Shown here piece after piece: positions 1-8,598 of a DNA stretch of 64,000 nucleotides (positions are counted from its first letter, which is position 1; every line of letters starts with the position of its first letter). The stretch comes from Hesseltinella vesiculosa. Its lineage: Eukaryota; Mucoromycota; Mucoromycetes; Mucorales; Cunninghamellaceae. The stretch lies in contig MCGT01000043.1 of NCBI GenBank assembly GCA_002104935.1, forward strand, positions 1 through 64,000, given 5' to 3'. The notes under the pieces are model-generated. The model was not told the origin of the DNA. It saw only the letters and a list, made by a program, of their open reading frames with translations, and did not search any database. The position numbers were made by a program, and so were the translations under genes.

Positions 1-303
1 CCAATTAATAACAAACGGATCTTGATTTTTTTGTTGGTTTAATACAATGCTTACCTTCAGGCCAGTCACTCGATGAGATATTCTTTCGGTTTAAACTTGA
101 AGATCGCTTGTTTGCTATGGTTTGAAAGATTAGACGTCTTACTAGTCTTACTCATGCATTACTCACGTAAAGACATTTGTTTTTAAATAAAAAAGAGGCG
201 TCAGAACCTGATTTCATGCGACCCTCTTTTGTTTCAGGTGCCGACCGTCCAAAATGGAAGGGAGCTTTAATCTTTTGCGACCGGTTTCTTTCCAGTCATC
301 ATC
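1..303. other. Intergenic, left edge
   Basis: No gene is seen. The last about 60 bases before 304 resemble the bases just upstream of the complete Fanzor-like gene at 1020, so the start of this block belongs to a partial tandem duplication. Confidence 0.5.
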
Positions 304-740
304 ATGATTTCAAAAGACCTTTTTACAAGCATAGTATCGTCGTTCACATATGATACTGAACATGACTTAGTGGGTTACAAGGGTCGCCTGGATCTGGATC
401 CCGCGGATCGAATTATCCTCATGACTCAATTTGTGGCCAGCCGGCCAGGTAAGCTATTCTCCTATAACAGCGAAACATTTATTGATGTTGATATTCTCTT
501 GTTTTGTAATATCTGTGGAGGAGATGGTCATGCTGCAAAGAAGAGTCGTGCTTGTAACCTTCATCTTGACACTGGACGTAAGTTCCCAAGTTACCTTCCA
601 TCGTCCTTCTGAAAGCGGCTCATCCTCTAGGTCAACTGATTTTGATGAACAAGCCAATATTGAAAATGGTAAGCAAGCCGACCGTCGAAAATATAAACTT
701 GAAGCTGCCAACCCTGATGCCATCCTGTTTTCGACCTGGT
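304..740 (+). pseudogene. Truncated 5' duplicate of the Fanzor-like gene
   Basis: This stretch repeats the 5' end of the neighbouring gene at 1020-4269. It has the same start context and a near-identical opening (MISKDLFT). The downstream Cys-x2-Cys-x4-His zinc-knuckle segment (CNICGGDGH) is present, as is the same second-intron position after a Gly-Arg codon (donor gtaagt near 580, acceptor ctag near 630). After the third coding block (DEQANIENGKQ region) similarity to the complete copy ends near 725, and no RuvC-type sequence follows. I read it as a decayed partial tandem duplicate. A short independent protein carrying only the zinc knuckle is the alternative, but nothing supports it. Confidence 0.65.
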
Positions 741-1019
741 TGACCTTGGAAATGTGGAAAGGTTCCAAGGATCTGAAAAGTGTGCATGTCTCCCATCTCA
801 AGCTTTCCCCCCCCCTCCATTCTTCTGTGGCAACTCTATTATAAAAAAACAATCTGAAATAAAACAATCCCTTGTTTATATGTTGTTCAATAAGACAGCT
901 AGGCTTGTTCATTTCTTGTTTTCATTTAAAAATGGAATGACCGCAGTTTCAAAAGATTTTTCCCTTTAAATTTGGAGAGGAGTTTGATCATTTTCGACCT
1001 TTTCTTTCCTCTTTTCATC

Positions 1020-2090
1020 ATGATTTCAAAAGATCTTTTTACAAACATAGTGTCGTCATTCACATACGATACTGAGCAAGATCTTTTGGACAACATGGAT
1101 CACCTGGATCTGGACCCCACAGATCGAATTATCCTGATGACTCAATTGGCAGCCAACCGACGAAGTACGTTCTGTTTTCAAAAAAAAAAAAAAAAAAAAA
1201 CCAGCAAAAATGAATGCTTCGCTTTTGTTGGAGTAGGTCTTGTGTTTTGTAATAGCTGTGGAAGAGAAGGTCACGCTACAAAAAAGAGTGCTGCCTGCGA
1301 ACATTACCAAGAAGCTGGACGTAAGTTTCCAAAGGCACCTTCCAGTGTCCTTCTGGAAAGTGGCTCACTCTGGTTTTTTTTTAAGCATCGACATCCACCA
1401 AGTCAGCTAATCGTGATGAACAAGCCAATATTGAAAAAGATAAGAAAGAAGGCCGTCGAAAACGCAAGCTTGAAACTGCCAACCCTGATGCCACACCCAG
1501 ATCACACATGCGGCCAACGAAAAAGCAGTATTACGACGATGTCTTGCCAAATCGTGAGGAATATACAAGAAAACTCTCTTTTGACTTAGCCGTGCGACCT
1601 GATCACATGCTGACTCTTCAACAAAATGTGACTGACGCTAGCCAACAGTTACGTCAGCTCATCCTACGCGTTGGGTTGTTTGTCAACCACTTTATCCTGA
1701 CCTATCCTCAGCAACTCGTGCGAACTGTCATGAATGGCAATGGACTATACAAGGTATACATGCTCTTACGTGGTGACCAAAACGTGGGAGGATTTGCAGG
1801 GCAGCTCCCACCCGAACTCCTTGGCCATTTTGGTTCCCTCCAAGCTGCATTGGCTGCAGAACCTGGTTCCCCGTCTCTGCTGTTCGCGCCTCCCCCTGGT
1901 TCTATTGACGCAAATACAATCAAATGCGCCTTGGACCATATGGCAACCGGCTACAACGAATCTACGAATGAACACTTTGAGGCCAAATTCAAGTCGTACA
2001 TCCGATTTCTAGCGCTTATGCTTTGTGGAAATGTAAGGCCTCTTTAAAAAAGAGCGATGCTGAGGGTGAATCTGGGATGGCTAACTCAAC

Positions 2091-2123
<33 letters not shown>

Positions 2124-4269
2124 TGGCCCACTCAACCACCAAAGTGGATTGTGACCAAGCTCGTGGATGAATCTTATATTCACTTTGCCATGAAGACTGA
2201 ACAGTATCATCCTGCCATTGACTGGACGGCCGTGCTCGACCATGCTGAATGGCCAGAAGATATGCCACACACCATCACCGCCTACACTGACCTGGGAAAC
2301 GCACTGGTTACGCAGTTGTTTGTCTTCAAGCCTCAGTACGTGGGAATCATCACAGCTGGATATCTTAAACAACATCCACATCACTCGATCCAATTGCTCT
2401 TAGAAGCTACCACATCCATGGAACAGTACGACAACCACCCATTCTTGGATCATCCACTGCCAAAGCCATTTGCCGTCCTTCCGCAGCCATCATGGGGACT
2501 ACGCCACGTCGACCTCGTTCCGGAAAACATCCACTGCTACAGTCCCGTACACAGCCGAGCAAGACCCACTGCCCGTCAGGGCACTGGTGATTCGGATCTG
2601 TCTGTCCCATCAGCGTTCCTGTCCCTGAAGACGTATTTTGATTTGTTTCGCATGGAGCACTTTGATATCCATCGGTACCTTATTTTTTTCTGTTCTCAAA
2701 AGGCAACTGTTGCTGACTTTTTTTCCCAGACACGAAGATTTGCTCGATCCATTGATGCATGATCCCCTGATGATGGTTTCAACGAACGGTGTGGAGGTGA
2801 ACTTCACTTTTAGTCGCATTTCAGGCTTACCAATGAAAGAGGCTCGCCTCGAAGACCTGGCACCCATGGATCATGATGTGCGAAATCGCTTCAATTTCTC
2901 GACAATTGACCCTGGGCGACGAACCACCGTCACAGCCATCGGACCGATACCTATGCCTGACACAGACCCTGGATCGTTGATACCGCGTCGACAAGGGAAG
3001 AAGCCAGCCAATGTGGATGACCAACATAGCCGCCGGTTGTGCACCTGTGTCCCTAGTGATGCTGATGAATCTGATGATGGCGCACGAGTGCTTGATACAA
3101 GCCCATTGCCCTTGCGCCGAGTCACCGCCAAGGAACTGCATGCACAGAGCGGGCATACAAGCCGCATGAAAGCACTGGCCTATCGAAAGAATCACACCTG
3201 GGTCAACATGCCTGGATCTTCAGACGCAGTGACGTTTCAAACATTCGAATCAACGATCGGGACAGCCAAGACAGCATCACCAGACGTTTATTTTGCGCGC
3301 ATCAGCAAAATTCTGGCCAATCTACCCGCCATCTGCGAATTCTACAATCGGCAGAGCCTCGTTGACCGGTTCAATGGCTATCGAGGGAAACAGCGGGCGA
3401 CAGCATTTGGTGCAAACGTGCTCATGACTGGAGGAAAGAAGTACAACAAATCCAAACGACAGACATGGCGCACCAAGCGAAACCGAAGGAACCGAAGGAA
3501 CAAAGCCTACAAGAAAAAGTTGATGAATCACATCCACGTGCTTGCCTCAATGGCAGCTCAACGATCTCTGGCCCGCTCACAATTACAAGCTCCGTTGGTT
3601 CCCATAGCTGTGGAGTCCCTTAATGCTTTAGAGCGCGACCTAATCCATACATTGGATTCTCGGCCCCCTCCACTGTAAGCCATTCCTAGCAAAGGCTTTT
3701 TTTTTGTTCACCGCCTTTTTTATTTTATATTATATGCTTGACATCTTTGGTAGACCAATGAAGGATTCCACAAGGATTTTGCATGGCGTAGTCAAGAACG
3801 ATGGTGTCACCAAAGTTCCGGCAATTGCGTTTGGCTCTGGAATGAAGCAAAACGTCAATCGCAAGGGCTTCAAAGGTCACATCACTGGAGCGTCGGAGAT
3901 GATTCGTCGACTCCTACTGGAGCACATGGCAAGAGGAAAGTGCCTTGTCTTTTCAATGGATGAATTCCGCACCTCTCGGGTATGCCAATGCAAGAGTGGC
4001 GGCTTGCCTACCTATTTTGCTCACATCTACTTTTGTTTGGGGGGGGGGTCTAGATGTGTGTATCGCATGGATGTCAGCACCAGCGTGTTGAAAATTTCCG
4101 TATTGGTGGCCAAGGGATCTTTGCTTTGAAGTCATGTTCAACCTGTCGAACAGTTTTTGAACGTGACCGACTAGCTGCCTCAGCAATGGCAATCATTCTT
4201 ACAACCTGGGAAGCCTCCCAAACCCGCTCTCTTCCCTGGCAACGCCCTGGCCGTCCTTTGCAAGCATAA
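1020..4269 (+). CDS. Fanzor/TnpB-like RNA-guided nuclease candidate, complete
   Basis: Seven exons fit: 1020-1164, 1237-1320, 1386-2032, 2124-2674, 2730-3674, 3754-3979 and 4054-4269. They total 2814 nt (937 aa plus stop), with GT-AG introns and consistent phase. An N-terminal zinc knuckle (C53, C56, H61, C69) is followed by a basic linker. The C-terminal third carries the RuvC-like core: IDPGRR with D536; an IAFGSG segment near 815-820 followed by a Gly/Lys-rich stretch; DEFRTSR with E861; a zinc ribbon (C868, C873, C894, C897); and ERDRLAASA with D904. DPG, DE-x-x-TS, the four-Cys ribbon and the RD-x-x-A block in this order are the TnpB/Fanzor signature. Family members are RuvC nucleases guided by a transposon-encoded RNA. 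Activity here, and assignment to Fanzor1 or Fanzor2, is inference. Intron 1 could be retained, since it is 72 nt and open. A ten-G run lies inside the last intron, not in coding sequence. Confidence 0.85.
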
Positions 4270-4609
4270 TTTTTTTTTTCTATAGCATCCATTCAAAACG
4301 TGGATATCAACATTTGATGCTTTTATAAAAGTAAGTGCTCAAAAATAAGCTCGGTTCTAACAAAAATGAAACAAGGTAAGCGAATCACTCATTGGTTGTT
4401 TGTTCTTATTCTCACTCACCTATTTGTCCTTTTTCGTAGTGGCTGACTTTTTCATTTTTCACAATCTGCGACATTTGATTTTGGAAAAACAGTATGGCAT
4501 GACAAATGCTTGCCAAGCAGATTTGGCAGATGAGCGGAATACGAACCCCACAGCTTTATTGCCTTTAAAGCTGTTCCCTATTTTTTTTTTTTTCCCTTCT
4601 TCCATTGCC
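4270..4609. other. Intergenic, Fanzor 3' flank and thioesterase promoter
   Basis: No gene is seen. It contains T-rich tracts and an isolated ATG followed by a donor-like gtaagc near 4376. By analogy with TnpB systems, the 3' end and flank of the nuclease gene is where a guide RNA would be sought. I see no structure that I can defend as one. Confidence 0.4.
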
Positions 4610-5860
4610 ATGGCGCTCACTAAATCAGTCGTTGCTCCTTTTGAATTTGATCAGGCAACCAATACGACATTCATTGACACCAATGGTAATGGTACCAGCT
4701 TGTACAGTGGTGAAGCCAGTATCGTAAGCTTTCTAGAGCTCCATGGCACTTGTCTCATGTTTCCCTCTCGCGCATTGAATTAGGAATGGGCCATTGGATC
4801 TGTCCCCAATGTAAGTCCATGGTGATGCCATGGTGGAGATAAGAAGCTCTGATGATTCCTTTTTTTTTTTTTTAATATTTGTCATGTTGCTTTTGCCAGG
4901 GTGGTGAGTCGGGAAGCGAGCGTGCACAGCTTATTCACATGATCCTTGAACCTGACTTTTTATTTTCTTGCCTAGGCTACGTGGTGTCGATGATGCTTGA
5001 CAGTGTGCTGCGCCATTTTGAAACAAGACACCAAAAACACCCGGTATCGATGGATTGCTTCTACCTAGCTAAGACCGCGGTGGGTCCGTTTGTGGTTGAA
5101 ATCCAAGAACTCAAAATGAGTACCAAAGGCTATTGTGTCTGCCGTGCCGAGCTGAAGCAATTCAAAGTGCGACGAAAAATAAGCTTTTTTTTTACATGCT
5201 TATTCATCTCTCTGTCTCGATCTCTTCTAGGACCTGGACACACCTTTGCCTCAGCACATGGATGAATATGATAGACAGGCCATGGTCACCAAGGTGTATG
5301 GGGTCTTCACCATGGGCAATATGGACCATGAAACTGGCAAATCGTTCGAACACAAAAATGTGAAAGCTCCATCGATCGAGAACATGGTCCCTTTCCCCTA
5401 TGTGTTTATGGGTGATTTTGTTGAGGCCAAGGTCGACCTTTCGACTTTCCCGATCAGCGAAGATGGTGGACTCGCGCTGGCTCGCGGCTTCAGTGGATCT
5501 GAGGACAAAGTGGTCCAAGGTCGACCCGAATTGTCCCAGCTCATGAATTTTTCAGACGGCCGCCCCATCGACGTCAAATGCCTGCCTTATTGGTGTGATA
5601 TGTTTTTGCCTCCTCCTGTTTTGCTCGGAATTAAATTCTGGAAGAGTAATGTCTGGTGCCCGACCATGTCTCTGCAAGTCCAATTCAAGCGTGTGCCCAC
5701 GCCTTCTACCAAGCAAGTCATTGCTCATTTCAACGTGCCCCATATCGTCAACAACCGCTACGACCTGGATGGTGAGATCTTTGATCTTGACGGCAACATC
5801 TTGGCTGTCACCAAACACCAATGTCTGGTTGTCGATTGGTCTCGTAACACAAAACTCTAG
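4610..5860 (+). CDS. Acyl-CoA thioesterase-like (hotdog) protein
   Basis: Exons are 4610-4723, 4784-4810, 4900-4903, 4976-5166 and 5231-5860, giving 966 nt and 321 aa. The N-terminal half contains EWAIGSVPNGGYVVSMML, the NGGY motif typical of TesB-like double-hotdog thioesterases. The C-terminal half contains RPIDVKCLPYWCDMFLPPP and a second hotdog-like segment ending in a D-x-x-G-x-I-x-A-x-T pattern followed by QCLVVDWS. Members hydrolyse acyl-CoA or related thioesters, but the substrate cannot be read from sequence. No signal peptide or membrane segment is evident. The third exon is only four bases (GGTG). Without it the frame breaks, and with it the conserved NGGY motif is restored. The gene starts 340 bases after the Fanzor-like gene, on the same strand. 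Confidence 0.75.
4900..4903 (+). other. Four-nucleotide microexon (GGTG)
   Basis: It is flanked by an acceptor ending ccag (4896-4899) and a donor gtgagt starting at 4904. It supplies a Gly codon plus the first base of the next Gly in the NGGY motif of the thioesterase-like protein. Direct splicing of 4810 to 4976 would give a stop within a few codons. Confidence 0.7.
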
Positions 5861-6725
5861 ATCCACCTCTTTCCTTCGTTGTCTTACTGCTGGATGTGCC
5901 TTGACGACCGGCCTTGTATTTTTTTATTTCCTACATAAACCCAATTTGATACAATTGACGCCAACAGAGGGTCGAAGGCTTTTGTAACGCTACGCCGAGT
6001 GGACATCCGCAGTCTACAGCTTGTGTCCTGGTCAGCTATGATTTCCCTCAGACCTGCCACCTCCAGACAAACAGCCCTTTGGCTTAATGCCGTGCTGCCC
6101 CCTTTTTACACATCGATCCCAAGGCTCACTTTCAGCGAAATGGCTGCGCTCTGATGTCAGGCGAAGCATCATCGGGTCTTTTTGGTTGACATTTAGAATG
6201 TCGTCCAAAGCAGTAGACAAAAAGATGGGCCACATGCATTCCAATGGCCCACCAATGCCAAGCTTGAATAGTCGATGCTGATGATCTAGAATCTGGCATC
6301 GGCGCGCCGAGCGAGCCAACAAGGCTTTCGGCGTCTCTTCTTCGGATTCGCAATGATAGACGCTATTCCGTTGATGTCAGTCTGCCGTATTCTTCGGCGC
6401 GACTGCTAACAGCATTGGCTTGGTGGATGTAAAAGTGAAAAGAAGAAGAAGAAAAAAAGGATACCCCTTCCGAATGGAGAAAAAGCCCGTGTCCGCCGTC
6501 TTCTTCATTTCTTTTTGTTTTTTGGAAAGGGACGAGAAGAGATCATCCACGCTTGACCATCAGCTTTCGGCTTTCGCTACCCTTCTCTCCTATATTTTTA
6601 TATCACCTTTTTTTTTTTTGACTTCTTCCTTTCCACTCATTTACCATTGCTTCCCTTGTTGACTCTCCTCTTTTTAATATATCCGATTCTTTCGCCCACT
6701 CGTTTCAACAAGACCAATACATGCC
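5861..6725. other. Intergenic, nothing recognised
   Basis: About 865 bases hold no recognisable gene. Two overlapping minus-strand open stretches (6032-6353) resemble no family I know and have no convincing start context. The last about 135 bases are the pyrimidine-rich promoter and leader of the MYND-presenilin gene. Confidence 0.4.
6591..6605 (+). promoter_or_regulatory. TATA-like element upstream of MYND-presenilin
   Basis: The AT-rich block tatatttttatatca lies about 120-135 bases before the start codon at 6726. Position and composition fit a TATA box. No other evidence supports it. Confidence 0.3.
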
Positions 6726-8598
6726 ATGACAGCCAGTTCATCCCAAGACAATGACGATGAAACAAGTGCCTGTACACATTGCCAAAAGCCAGGACTGTTT
6801 ATTTGCTCATCGTGTGGTGTAGATGGGCCTCGTTACTGCTCTCAACTTTGCCAAAACGATCACTGGCAGCTTGATCACCACCAACACTGCAAAGCAACCC
6901 TTCAACGGCAAAGCCGTCAGCTGAATGCTCAACAAACACAAGGTAAGCAGGAAAGGAGAAAAAAAAAAGGTATCATGGCAGCCGTTTATAGATGAATTGT
7001 CCATAGGCACCACCACCGCCGATATCCCATTAACAGAAATCAATACCAGCTCGGCGGAATCCGAAGACGACAGCCCGGAAGAGCAGGCCAGCAATATAAA
7101 GTATTACATGGATCAAATCTACCTGATTATCCAACCTGTTGTGTATTGCATTTTGCTCAGTATCTTTTGGGTCAAGGTTGGCTTCAACGATGGCAGCGAT
7201 TACAGGTAAGGGAAAATAATACAAAAAGAAAGCCTGGTAGTTAGGCACCCATGCCTCCCCCTTCTTTTATTTTTTTTGCTAGCCCCACACGGCCGACGTA
7301 TTCTGTGATTTCCAACAGCAACACTGGCTCACCGGAATCCACAAATTCGGGCCTCAGCTCATTTGCCAGCGCTGCCATCATCATTAGCCAGATTATTGTC
7401 GTCACGATCGTCATTGTCTTTTTCTTCCGCAAAGGCTGGATCAAGGTGTTGATTGGTTTCTTTATGCTGGTTGTGCTGTGCCTGTTGGGTTTCATGACGT
7501 ACCTGTTGATTTTGTAGGTAAGCCGATGGTCCGAAGACGCCGGCTTACACCATTAATTTTCATCAGGAATTTGGTCCAGGTGTTTTTTATTCCTTTGGAC
7601 TATGTCACTTTGAGTTTGGCCCTGTGGAACTTTGTCATCGTCGGGTTGATCTCGATTTTTTGGCAAGGTCCTCTTTGGCTGCAACAAGCTTATCTGACAA
7701 TCCTCAGCTCCTTGATGGTAAAACAAAAAGCAGAAAAAATGCCAGCCAATGGCTGATCACTTTTCTTTTGGCTCTAGGCTTTTTCTTTGACAGGGCTGGA
7801 ACAGTGGACAACTTGGATCTTGCTGGGCCTGTTGGCAGTATGGGGTAGGCTGTGTAAGGGAGTCACGAGTGACCAAGGTCTCATTGATTTTTTTTTTATG
7901 CGTATGAAGATCTGATAGCGGTCCTTTGTCCGTTTGGTCCCCTTCGGCTATTGATTGAAAGCTCAAGGTCACAACAGCGAGAAGTGCCTGCACTGCTGTA
8001 CTCAGTGAATGCAGTCTGGTTCATGCTGGCTGCGCCTCATCACATTGCCTCCTCGGAAACAAGTTTTTCCAATGGTCCCCTGGATCCACCGATGACGCCC
8101 ACCTCCACAACGCCGCTGCACTTACAAGAGGATCGTTCCGAGCGAACCATGGGGTCAGCTCCCGACCAGGTACGCCACCGCACAAGCGCCGAATCATCCC
8201 GTCCATCTTTGTCCGACGCAACGACAGATGGTGAGAATCCACGACCCCGTGATGAAGAAGATGGTAATATTTTTAGACAACCTCCTTCATCCACTCATAT
8301 TTTTTTTTTGTAACGAATAGCGGAACGGAGTGGATTAAAGTTAGGGTTGGGGGACTTTGTGTTCTATAGCGTGCTGATTGCTCGTGCAGCCATGTACGAC
8401 TGGATCACCACGGTGTGCTGTACGATTGCTGTCCTGACTGGCTTGACGGCTACCATCTTTTTGCTTGCTATTTATAAAAAAGCTCTGCCTGCCCTGCCGA
8501 TCTCCATCGCCTTTGGTATTATGTTTTATTTTGTGGCCAAGACTGTCTTGGTCCCTTTTGTCACGGTGCTGTGTGCTGTGGCTATGGTCGCTCTTTGA
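6726..8598 (+). CDS. Presenilin with N-terminal MYND zinc finger
   Basis: Exons are 6726-6942, 7007-7205, 7283-7513, 7567-7717, 7778-7844, 7910-8263 and 8321-8598, giving 1497 nt and 498 aa. Residues 16-55 form a complete MYND finger (C16, C19, C27, C30, C38, C42, H51, C55). From about residue 100 the protein is a presenilin, the intramembrane aspartyl protease of gamma-secretase. It has multiple hydrophobic helices, catalytic D289 in [16 protein letters not shown], a hydrophilic loop (about 315-405), catalytic D418 in [10 protein letters not shown], and the PAL motif at 463-465. The usual YD of helix 6 is WD here. The MYND exon joins the presenilin exons through a phase-1 GT-AG intron, with no stop or promoter between them. 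A minimal upstream reading frame (ATG at 6721, stop overlapping the main ATG) precedes the start. The MYND finger would face the cytosol if topology is standard. Confidence 0.88.

Follow-up and report, generated by a model that had tools for sequence, protein, structure and literature searches.

The window, that is, the whole stretch of 64,000 bases that we analyzed, comprises bases 1 to 64,000 of contig C38 (204,212 bases) of the Hesseltinella vesiculosa genome (27.05 Mb in 85 contigs). Close to its left edge, on the plus strand, lies a gene that we read as a Fanzor (1020-4269). The original prediction of a complete frame spliceable over seven exons was confirmed: removal of six introns, each running from GT to AG, leaves a single protein of 937 amino acids followed by a stop codon, with the start of exon 3 picked by phase and open frame. 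The gene is carried by an inverted-repeat element, the left ~1.4 kb of which is missing from the window because the contig starts inside the element. The features are as follows.

1..254, strand not assigned: belongs to the left section of the element; an open minus-strand frame extends over roughly bases 1-150
255..722, plus: incomplete tandem duplicate of the Fanzor 5' region, running from exon 1 into the beginning of exon 3, in blocks 79-82% identical, with a second knuckle
1020..1164, plus: Fanzor exon 1, start codon at 1020 (backed by the alignment with the paralogue P0002)
1237..1320, plus: Fanzor exon 2, with a CCHC zinc-knuckle-like motif (residues 53-69)
1386..2032, plus: Fanzor exon 3, putative REC part (by position alone)
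2124..2674, plus: Fanzor exon 4, putative REC/WED part (by position alone)
2730..3674, plus: Fanzor exon 5, with a TNG motif, RuvC-I D536 (codon 2908-2910), a basic helical stretch and RPPP
3754..3979, plus: Fanzor exon 6, with FGSG at the canonical RuvC-II site and E861 (codon 3962-3964)
4054..4269, plus: Fanzor exon 7, with the four-Cys ribbon, RuvC-III D904 (codon 4165-4167) and the stop codon
4270..4492, plus: 3' noncoding right end, the expected place of a putative omega RNA scaffold
4467..4492, plus: right terminal inverted repeat
4493..4494, plus: TA flanking the right end, a presumed target-site duplication (its left counterpart lies off the contig)

Beyond the element, the window carries an acyl-CoA thioesterase-like gene at 4610-5860 (4HBT_3, 4HBT_3C), the likely start of which, placed by eye at 4610, is 115 bases past the TA at the element's right end. 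Further on, at 6678-7756, a MYND finger frame is closely followed by Presenilin frames, which may form one fused gene with it.

A model of the same gene has been deposited as P0001 ("hypothetical protein DM01DRAFT_1386592 [Hesseltinella vesiculosa]"; 921 amino acids; 98% identity over the part searched), for which no Pfam family matched up to E = 1. Compared with our model, P0001 draws its first nine residues from the incomplete 5' duplicate upstream of the gene and omits the first seven residues of exon 4; its last exon, beginning at 4078, leaves out MCVSHGCQ, which makes up the first half of the zinc ribbon. The family 2 paralogue P0002 (41% identity to the window protein over the part searched) reads LCPEHHCRHQ where P0001 lacks the ribbon half, and its N terminus aligns with residues 1-48 of our model. 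Moreover, a diverged copy on contig C2 keeps the AG at 4052-4053, and the later AG used by P0001 is altered there. On this comparative evidence, namely, the ribbon and N terminus of P0002 and the acceptor retained in C2, we prefer the 937-residue model as probably the better one. This suggests a correction to a database gene model that hides the nuclease.

The hallmarks of a RuvC nuclease were found at the positions claimed for them: D536 of RuvC-I in a DPG motif, E861 in DEFRTS, and D904 of RuvC-III in ERD. All three are invariant in an alignment of the three Fanzor families that we recognized in this genome, as are C868, C894, C897, and R903. The predicted four-Cys ribbon is present as C868-x4-C873-x20-C894-x2-C897, its first pair spaced C-x4-C instead of C-x2-C, likewise in P0002. 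At the canonical RuvC-II site there is indeed a Gly-rich FGSG (residues 817-820), and the three families read F-G-[SQD]-G at this place (FGSG, FGQG, and FGDG). The proposal that E861 is a displaced catalytic glutamate is supported, since it stands six residues before the first ribbon cysteine, C868, the alternative-glutamate position described for Fanzors in the text available from PMC10711439, where DPG together with such a glutamate is given as a Fanzor mark. An intron directly follows TS[RK] of the glutamate motif in families 1 and 3 and, judged by a break in the protein match at 867/868, in family 2. AlphaFold2 runs on P0001 and P0002, with alignments of only three sequences, gave pLDDT values of 35.5 and 37.8 and no usable model.

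The spacing of these motifs departs in part from published patterns. The [TS][TS]-ribbon-RD arrangement is present, with TS at 864-865, the four cysteines, and RD at 903-904, five residues past C897, where the pattern allows 5 to 50. However, the gap from the RuvC-I aspartate to [TS][TS] is 327 residues in the window protein, 302 in P0002, and 399 in family 3, so that none of the three families falls within the D-X(125,275)-[TS][TS] published in 2013, which we treated as a descriptive range observed at the time and not as a functional rule. A relaxed motif, DPG-x(120-450)-E-x6-C-x(2-4)-C-x(12-24)-C-x2-C-x(4-8)-D, occurred in 0 of 20,000 shuffles of the protein, a test that only bounds chance because the motif was relaxed with the sequence already in view. 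Two printed Fanzor motif spacings do not fit these large fungal Fanzors as written.

A search of the genome with the window protein gave at least 92 exon-level matches. In the RuvC/TNB part, the window protein is 42% and 37% identical to the other two families. Family 3, of which we spliced a member from locus C1:1308307 onwards, has 23 loci (in pieces 70 to 98% identical to one member), several of them with long open frames. A diverged relative lies at C1:1651-1654 kb, and the genome is rich in Fanzors. The TNB domain PF07282 was seen in three of the four aligned members: the window protein (0.0023) and P0002 (7e-4) score under the Pfam cutoff, and family 3 scores over it with the best value (7e-9). 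With phmmer, family 3 matched the TnpB-like protein L79 (9b0l), which we take to be a mimivirus Fanzor2-like protein, at 2e-4 and LaTranC (9jfq) at 1.7e-4; both were found via family 3, not with the window sequence. Family 3 aligns with L79 over the ribbon, the displaced-glutamate motif (NEFKTSKLC on NEYLTTKTC), and RD (DRD on DRD), and with LaTranC over the ribbon and RD. Among solved TnpB/Fanzor chains, a set that may not contain SpuFz1, GtFz1, or PpFz1, no match up to E = 10 was obtained for the full window protein, its C-terminal piece, or the four-sequence or three-family profile. Protein searches for relatives returned at least three proteins among 7,999 scored candidates in one case and one and no proteins in the others, and the few peptide patterns used on viral and prokaryote contigs found no relatives there. 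The window sequence alone scores weakly, and kinship to TnpB rests on the paralogues; with the triad invariant in three families and family 3 above the PF07282 cutoff, the reading as a TnpB-derived nuclease is supported. Taken with its setting, the gene is a divergent, recently mobile Fanzor, probably of the Fanzor1 type.

As far as the accessible portions of PMC3627910, PMC10711439, and PMC11423790 go, Fanzor1 proteins (SpuFz1, GtFz1, and the mucoralean PpFz1 of Parasitella) share with the window protein the DPG of RuvC-I, the glutamate six residues before the ribbon, and the RD of RuvC-III. Fanzor1 genes are also described, in what was available of PMC3627910, as carried by diverse eukaryotic DNA elements, as the window gene is by its own. 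In contrast to Fanzor1, the window protein has an N-terminal CCHC motif, a C-x4-C first ribbon pair, and a D-to-TS gap of 327, and it is 937 residues long against the 600 to 700 that the excerpted PMC11423790 gives for most Fanzor1 proteins. Fanzors are already known in Mucorales, since the 2013 listing, in the part of PMC3627910 at hand, includes Fanzor1 of Rhizopus, Phycomyces, and Mucor, with several Fanzor families per genome. The elements named there for Mucor, Rhizopus, and Phycomyces (MCi, ROr, and PBl) come from the same fungal order and likewise represent several families per genome. What is new here is a divergent, recently mobile member of a kind already published in Mucorales. In our literature search, no mention was found of a Fanzor together with Hesseltinella, Mucoromycota, a zinc knuckle, or CCHC; published catalogues (supplements) may contain the gene.

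The N-terminal CCHC-like motif claimed at residues 53-69 is present as C53-x2-C56-x4-H61-x7-C69 and occupies an 84-base exon of its own, exon 2. The pattern C-x2-C-x3-GH-x(4-8)-C is shared by families 1, 2, and 3 and Gongronella P0003. Family 2 has it at the matching place; family 3 and Gongronella P0003 have it further on, right after an NP-x-[AV] stretch, so that the motif is widespread in these fungal Fanzors but varies in position. Six-frame translations of the fetched loci (593,088 codons, with overlapping loci counted repeatedly) contained 37 matches to the pattern, each in a Fanzor leader; a looser pattern without the glycine gave 44 matches, of which 37 were inspected. Judged by sequence, the motif belongs to several families of fungal Fanzors and is not unique to the window gene. 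We call it knuckle-like only, as the Pfam zinc-knuckle models found none in the window protein and scored zf-CCHC_6 at 0.19 in P0002, under the cutoff. A tandem duplicate of the knuckle-bearing 5' part is present in family 1, and a separate one in a single family 2 copy, at the C14 locus, where two knuckle exons lie 851 bases apart. The duplicated exon 2 in the window lacks an AG at the position corresponding to the acceptor, and the exon 1 plus exon 2 copies differ with a dN/dS of about 0.34.

The Fanzor gene is the cargo of a 5.9-kb inverted-repeat element present in four near-identical copies, which have different flanks and shared ends. The copies on contigs C45, C78, and C56 are 98.4 to 99.4% identical to the window as far as base 4495, and comparison of 30-kb stretches around them defined a shared unit of 5,952, 6,238 (with an insert), and 5,913 bases, respectively. 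The left end reads CAGTGTTTTCGGCAAAACATGTCGCA in C78 and C56, and C45 has one A more; the right end, reversed, reads CTGTTTTTCCAAAATCAAATGTCGCA. Of the three copies with both ends, C45 and C78 are flanked by TA on either side, and C56 by AG at its left end and TA at its right end. The right ends read TAT in all four copies. A search with 19 bases of the end, allowing up to three mismatches, gave 14 matches against 7 for a reversed control; four of the matches had two mismatches or fewer, and these correspond to the three complete copies and a site on C85. Remnants of the right end were found at C22 and C34 (0.8 to 0.9 kb around each was read), and a left-end remnant was found at C85. The left 1.4 kb of the element, together with about bases 1-150 of the window, contains a minus-strand reading frame in short exons, which within the genome is confined to this element family (C45, C56, C78, C15, and C2) and in which no in-frame start codon was seen by eye.

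The end searches found no transposase-bearing element in the genome that shares these inverted repeats. The left-end match at C85 (24 of 26 bases) adjoins a DDE_3 transposase gene, and we rejected this locus as an autonomous partner: the transposase belongs to an element at C85:762.8-765 kb (DDE_3, 1e-22) that has its own perfect 27-bp inverted repeats and lies beside the Fanzor left-end remnant. Because no transposase-bearing element with these ends was found and the TA flanks are mixed, the element would be classed, from its sequence, as an inverted-repeat element with TA flanks that is Tc1/mariner-like at most. The inverted repeats and TA flanks would speak against an IS607 element. Among the elements covered by the available text of PMC3627910, the Fanzor-carrying PUl-4-type Mariner elements without transposase likewise have inverted repeats, a TA duplication, and no large gene other than the Fanzor. 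In contrast to these, a match of the window element's repeats to a confirmed Mariner is putative, the left TA is absent in one of three copies, and there is an extra minus-strand frame. The mucoralean elements detailed in the same text have 9-bp, 11- to 12-bp, or 6-bp duplications, compared with TA here, and are set apart by description, not by sequence.

The window and C45 copies are open, the latter with all splice sites, and two of the four near-identical copies are broken. C56 has lost one base in exon 1, and C78 has an insert of ~290 bases in exon 7, just past the D904 codon, with an 8-base target duplication, a length suggesting that the insert is presumably a hAT-type MITE. Among older copies, C15 is frameshifted in exon 3, and C50 and C2 are degenerate. 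We compared the spliced coding sequences by NG86, with the window copy as the reference throughout, so the pairs are not independent; Fisher tests used rounded counts and site totals back-computed from proportions. Against the window copy, C45 showed 11 synonymous and 8 nonsynonymous changes in 933 codons (dN/dS, 0.22; P = 0.001), C78 showed 9 and 4 in 903 codons (dN/dS, 0.13; P = 0.0005), and C56 showed 24.5 and 17.5 in 932 codons (dN/dS, 0.21; P = 2e-6). In fragments of older copies, C15 had 2 synonymous and no nonsynonymous changes in 288 codons, and dN/dS was 0.45 for C13, 0.30 for C2, and 0.47 for C50. Synonymous changes are in excess in all three pairwise comparisons, so that coding constraint acted on the lineage as the copies diverged; by this measure, the gene is under purifying selection (dN/dS, 0.13 to 0.22).

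We considered whether the assignments within the protein could be mistaken. The stretch IAVESLNAL, containing E770, locally resembles the canonical TnpB RuvC-II pattern, VxxEdLN, and if E770 were the RuvC-II acid, the reading of E861 would be wrong. However, this stretch precedes the strand ending in F-G-[SQD]-G and is poorly conserved, with a loose match in P0002 (PVET-FLRQLE) and a gap in family 3, whereas E861 is invariant in the same alignment. We therefore rejected E770 as the catalytic glutamate and regard this assignment as extremely improbable. The CCHC motif, for its part, could be a chance pattern of cysteines and not a zinc knuckle. The sub-cutoff Pfam result is in keeping with this, as are the nearest solved matches to the knuckle, retroviral nucleocapsids at E values of 4 and 7, but a chance pattern would not be expected to recur across three families and Gongronella P0003 with 37 of 37 matches in Fanzor leaders, and we consider it very unlikely.

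With respect to the gene as a whole, the broken and decayed copies raise the question of whether it is a fossil, of a family that moved recently but no longer uses its nuclease, with open frames too young to have decayed. The excess of synonymous changes in every pairwise comparison and the two copies that are still open argue against this, which we hold to be unlikely, though less so than the other alternatives. An intron-rich and constrained coding sequence might also be expected of a Fanzor domesticated by the host for a cellular role instead of serving the element. However, the gene lies between shared element ends at different sites, and the identity of 98 to 99% extends to the noncoding parts, which makes domestication highly improbable. 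These observations suggest that the gene is, with good confidence, an intact, recently mobile, divergent Fanzor, a RuvC nuclease of the TnpB lineage with DPG and a displaced glutamate, most likely Fanzor1, traveling as cargo of the 5.9-kb inverted-repeat DNA element.

RNA guidance of the window Fanzor is inferred by extension from published Fanzors. Folding of the right end (4270-4495) was no better than that of shuffled sequence (-33.1 kcal/mol against a mean of -36.1; z = +0.85; 163 of 200 shuffles at least as stable), and Rfam gave no match in window bases 1-6000. Blocks of the right end are conserved in C2, C22, and C34, and the five-row alignment gave no supported structure. At 4376-4439, past the stop codon, the stretch GTAAGC...TTTCGTAG resembles a small intron, both ends of which are kept in the C22 remnant and not in C2 or C34. 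If it were spliced, an RNA derived from this end would be altered.

By analogy with published Fanzors, the protein would bind a noncoding RNA from the element's right end and flank (from about 4270 across 4492), the nuclease would recognize a short motif, probably with TA as its last two bases, like that beside the left end, and it would cut the matching empty site. Repair from an element-bearing copy would then restore the element and maintain its copy number once a transposase provided from elsewhere has excised it. The knuckle would most likely add RNA or DNA binding, the least supported step of this scheme. A more far-reaching possibility, which we think quite unlikely, is that mucoralean Fanzors are a knuckle-bearing, large-bodied sublineage, in which the CCHC unit (which occupies two alternative positions, forms a separate exon in families 1 and 2, and is duplicated in tandem in one member of each of these families) gives a binding to RNA or transposon ends that other Fanzors lack, and in which an invariant R-P-x-P loop ahead of the RuvC-II strand docks a host cyclophilin, as the loop with P614 and P616 does in PpFz1. 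R787-P788-x-P790 shows no variation among the four aligned sequences and lies between the basic helices and the RuvC-II strand. In PpFz1 of Parasitella, according to the available sections of PMC11423790, P614 and P616 of a RuvC insertion contact cyclophilin, and the authors found the insertion only in Parasitella and Rhizopus. We treat equivalence of the two proline loops as a lead. Under the preferred reading, that of a recently mobile Fanzor serving its element, the window gene belongs to a young multicopy family, two copies of which are open, and whose ends are defined and flanks known. Such a family would allow a direct test of the role proposed for Fanzors, namely, the recutting of empty sites to keep the element.
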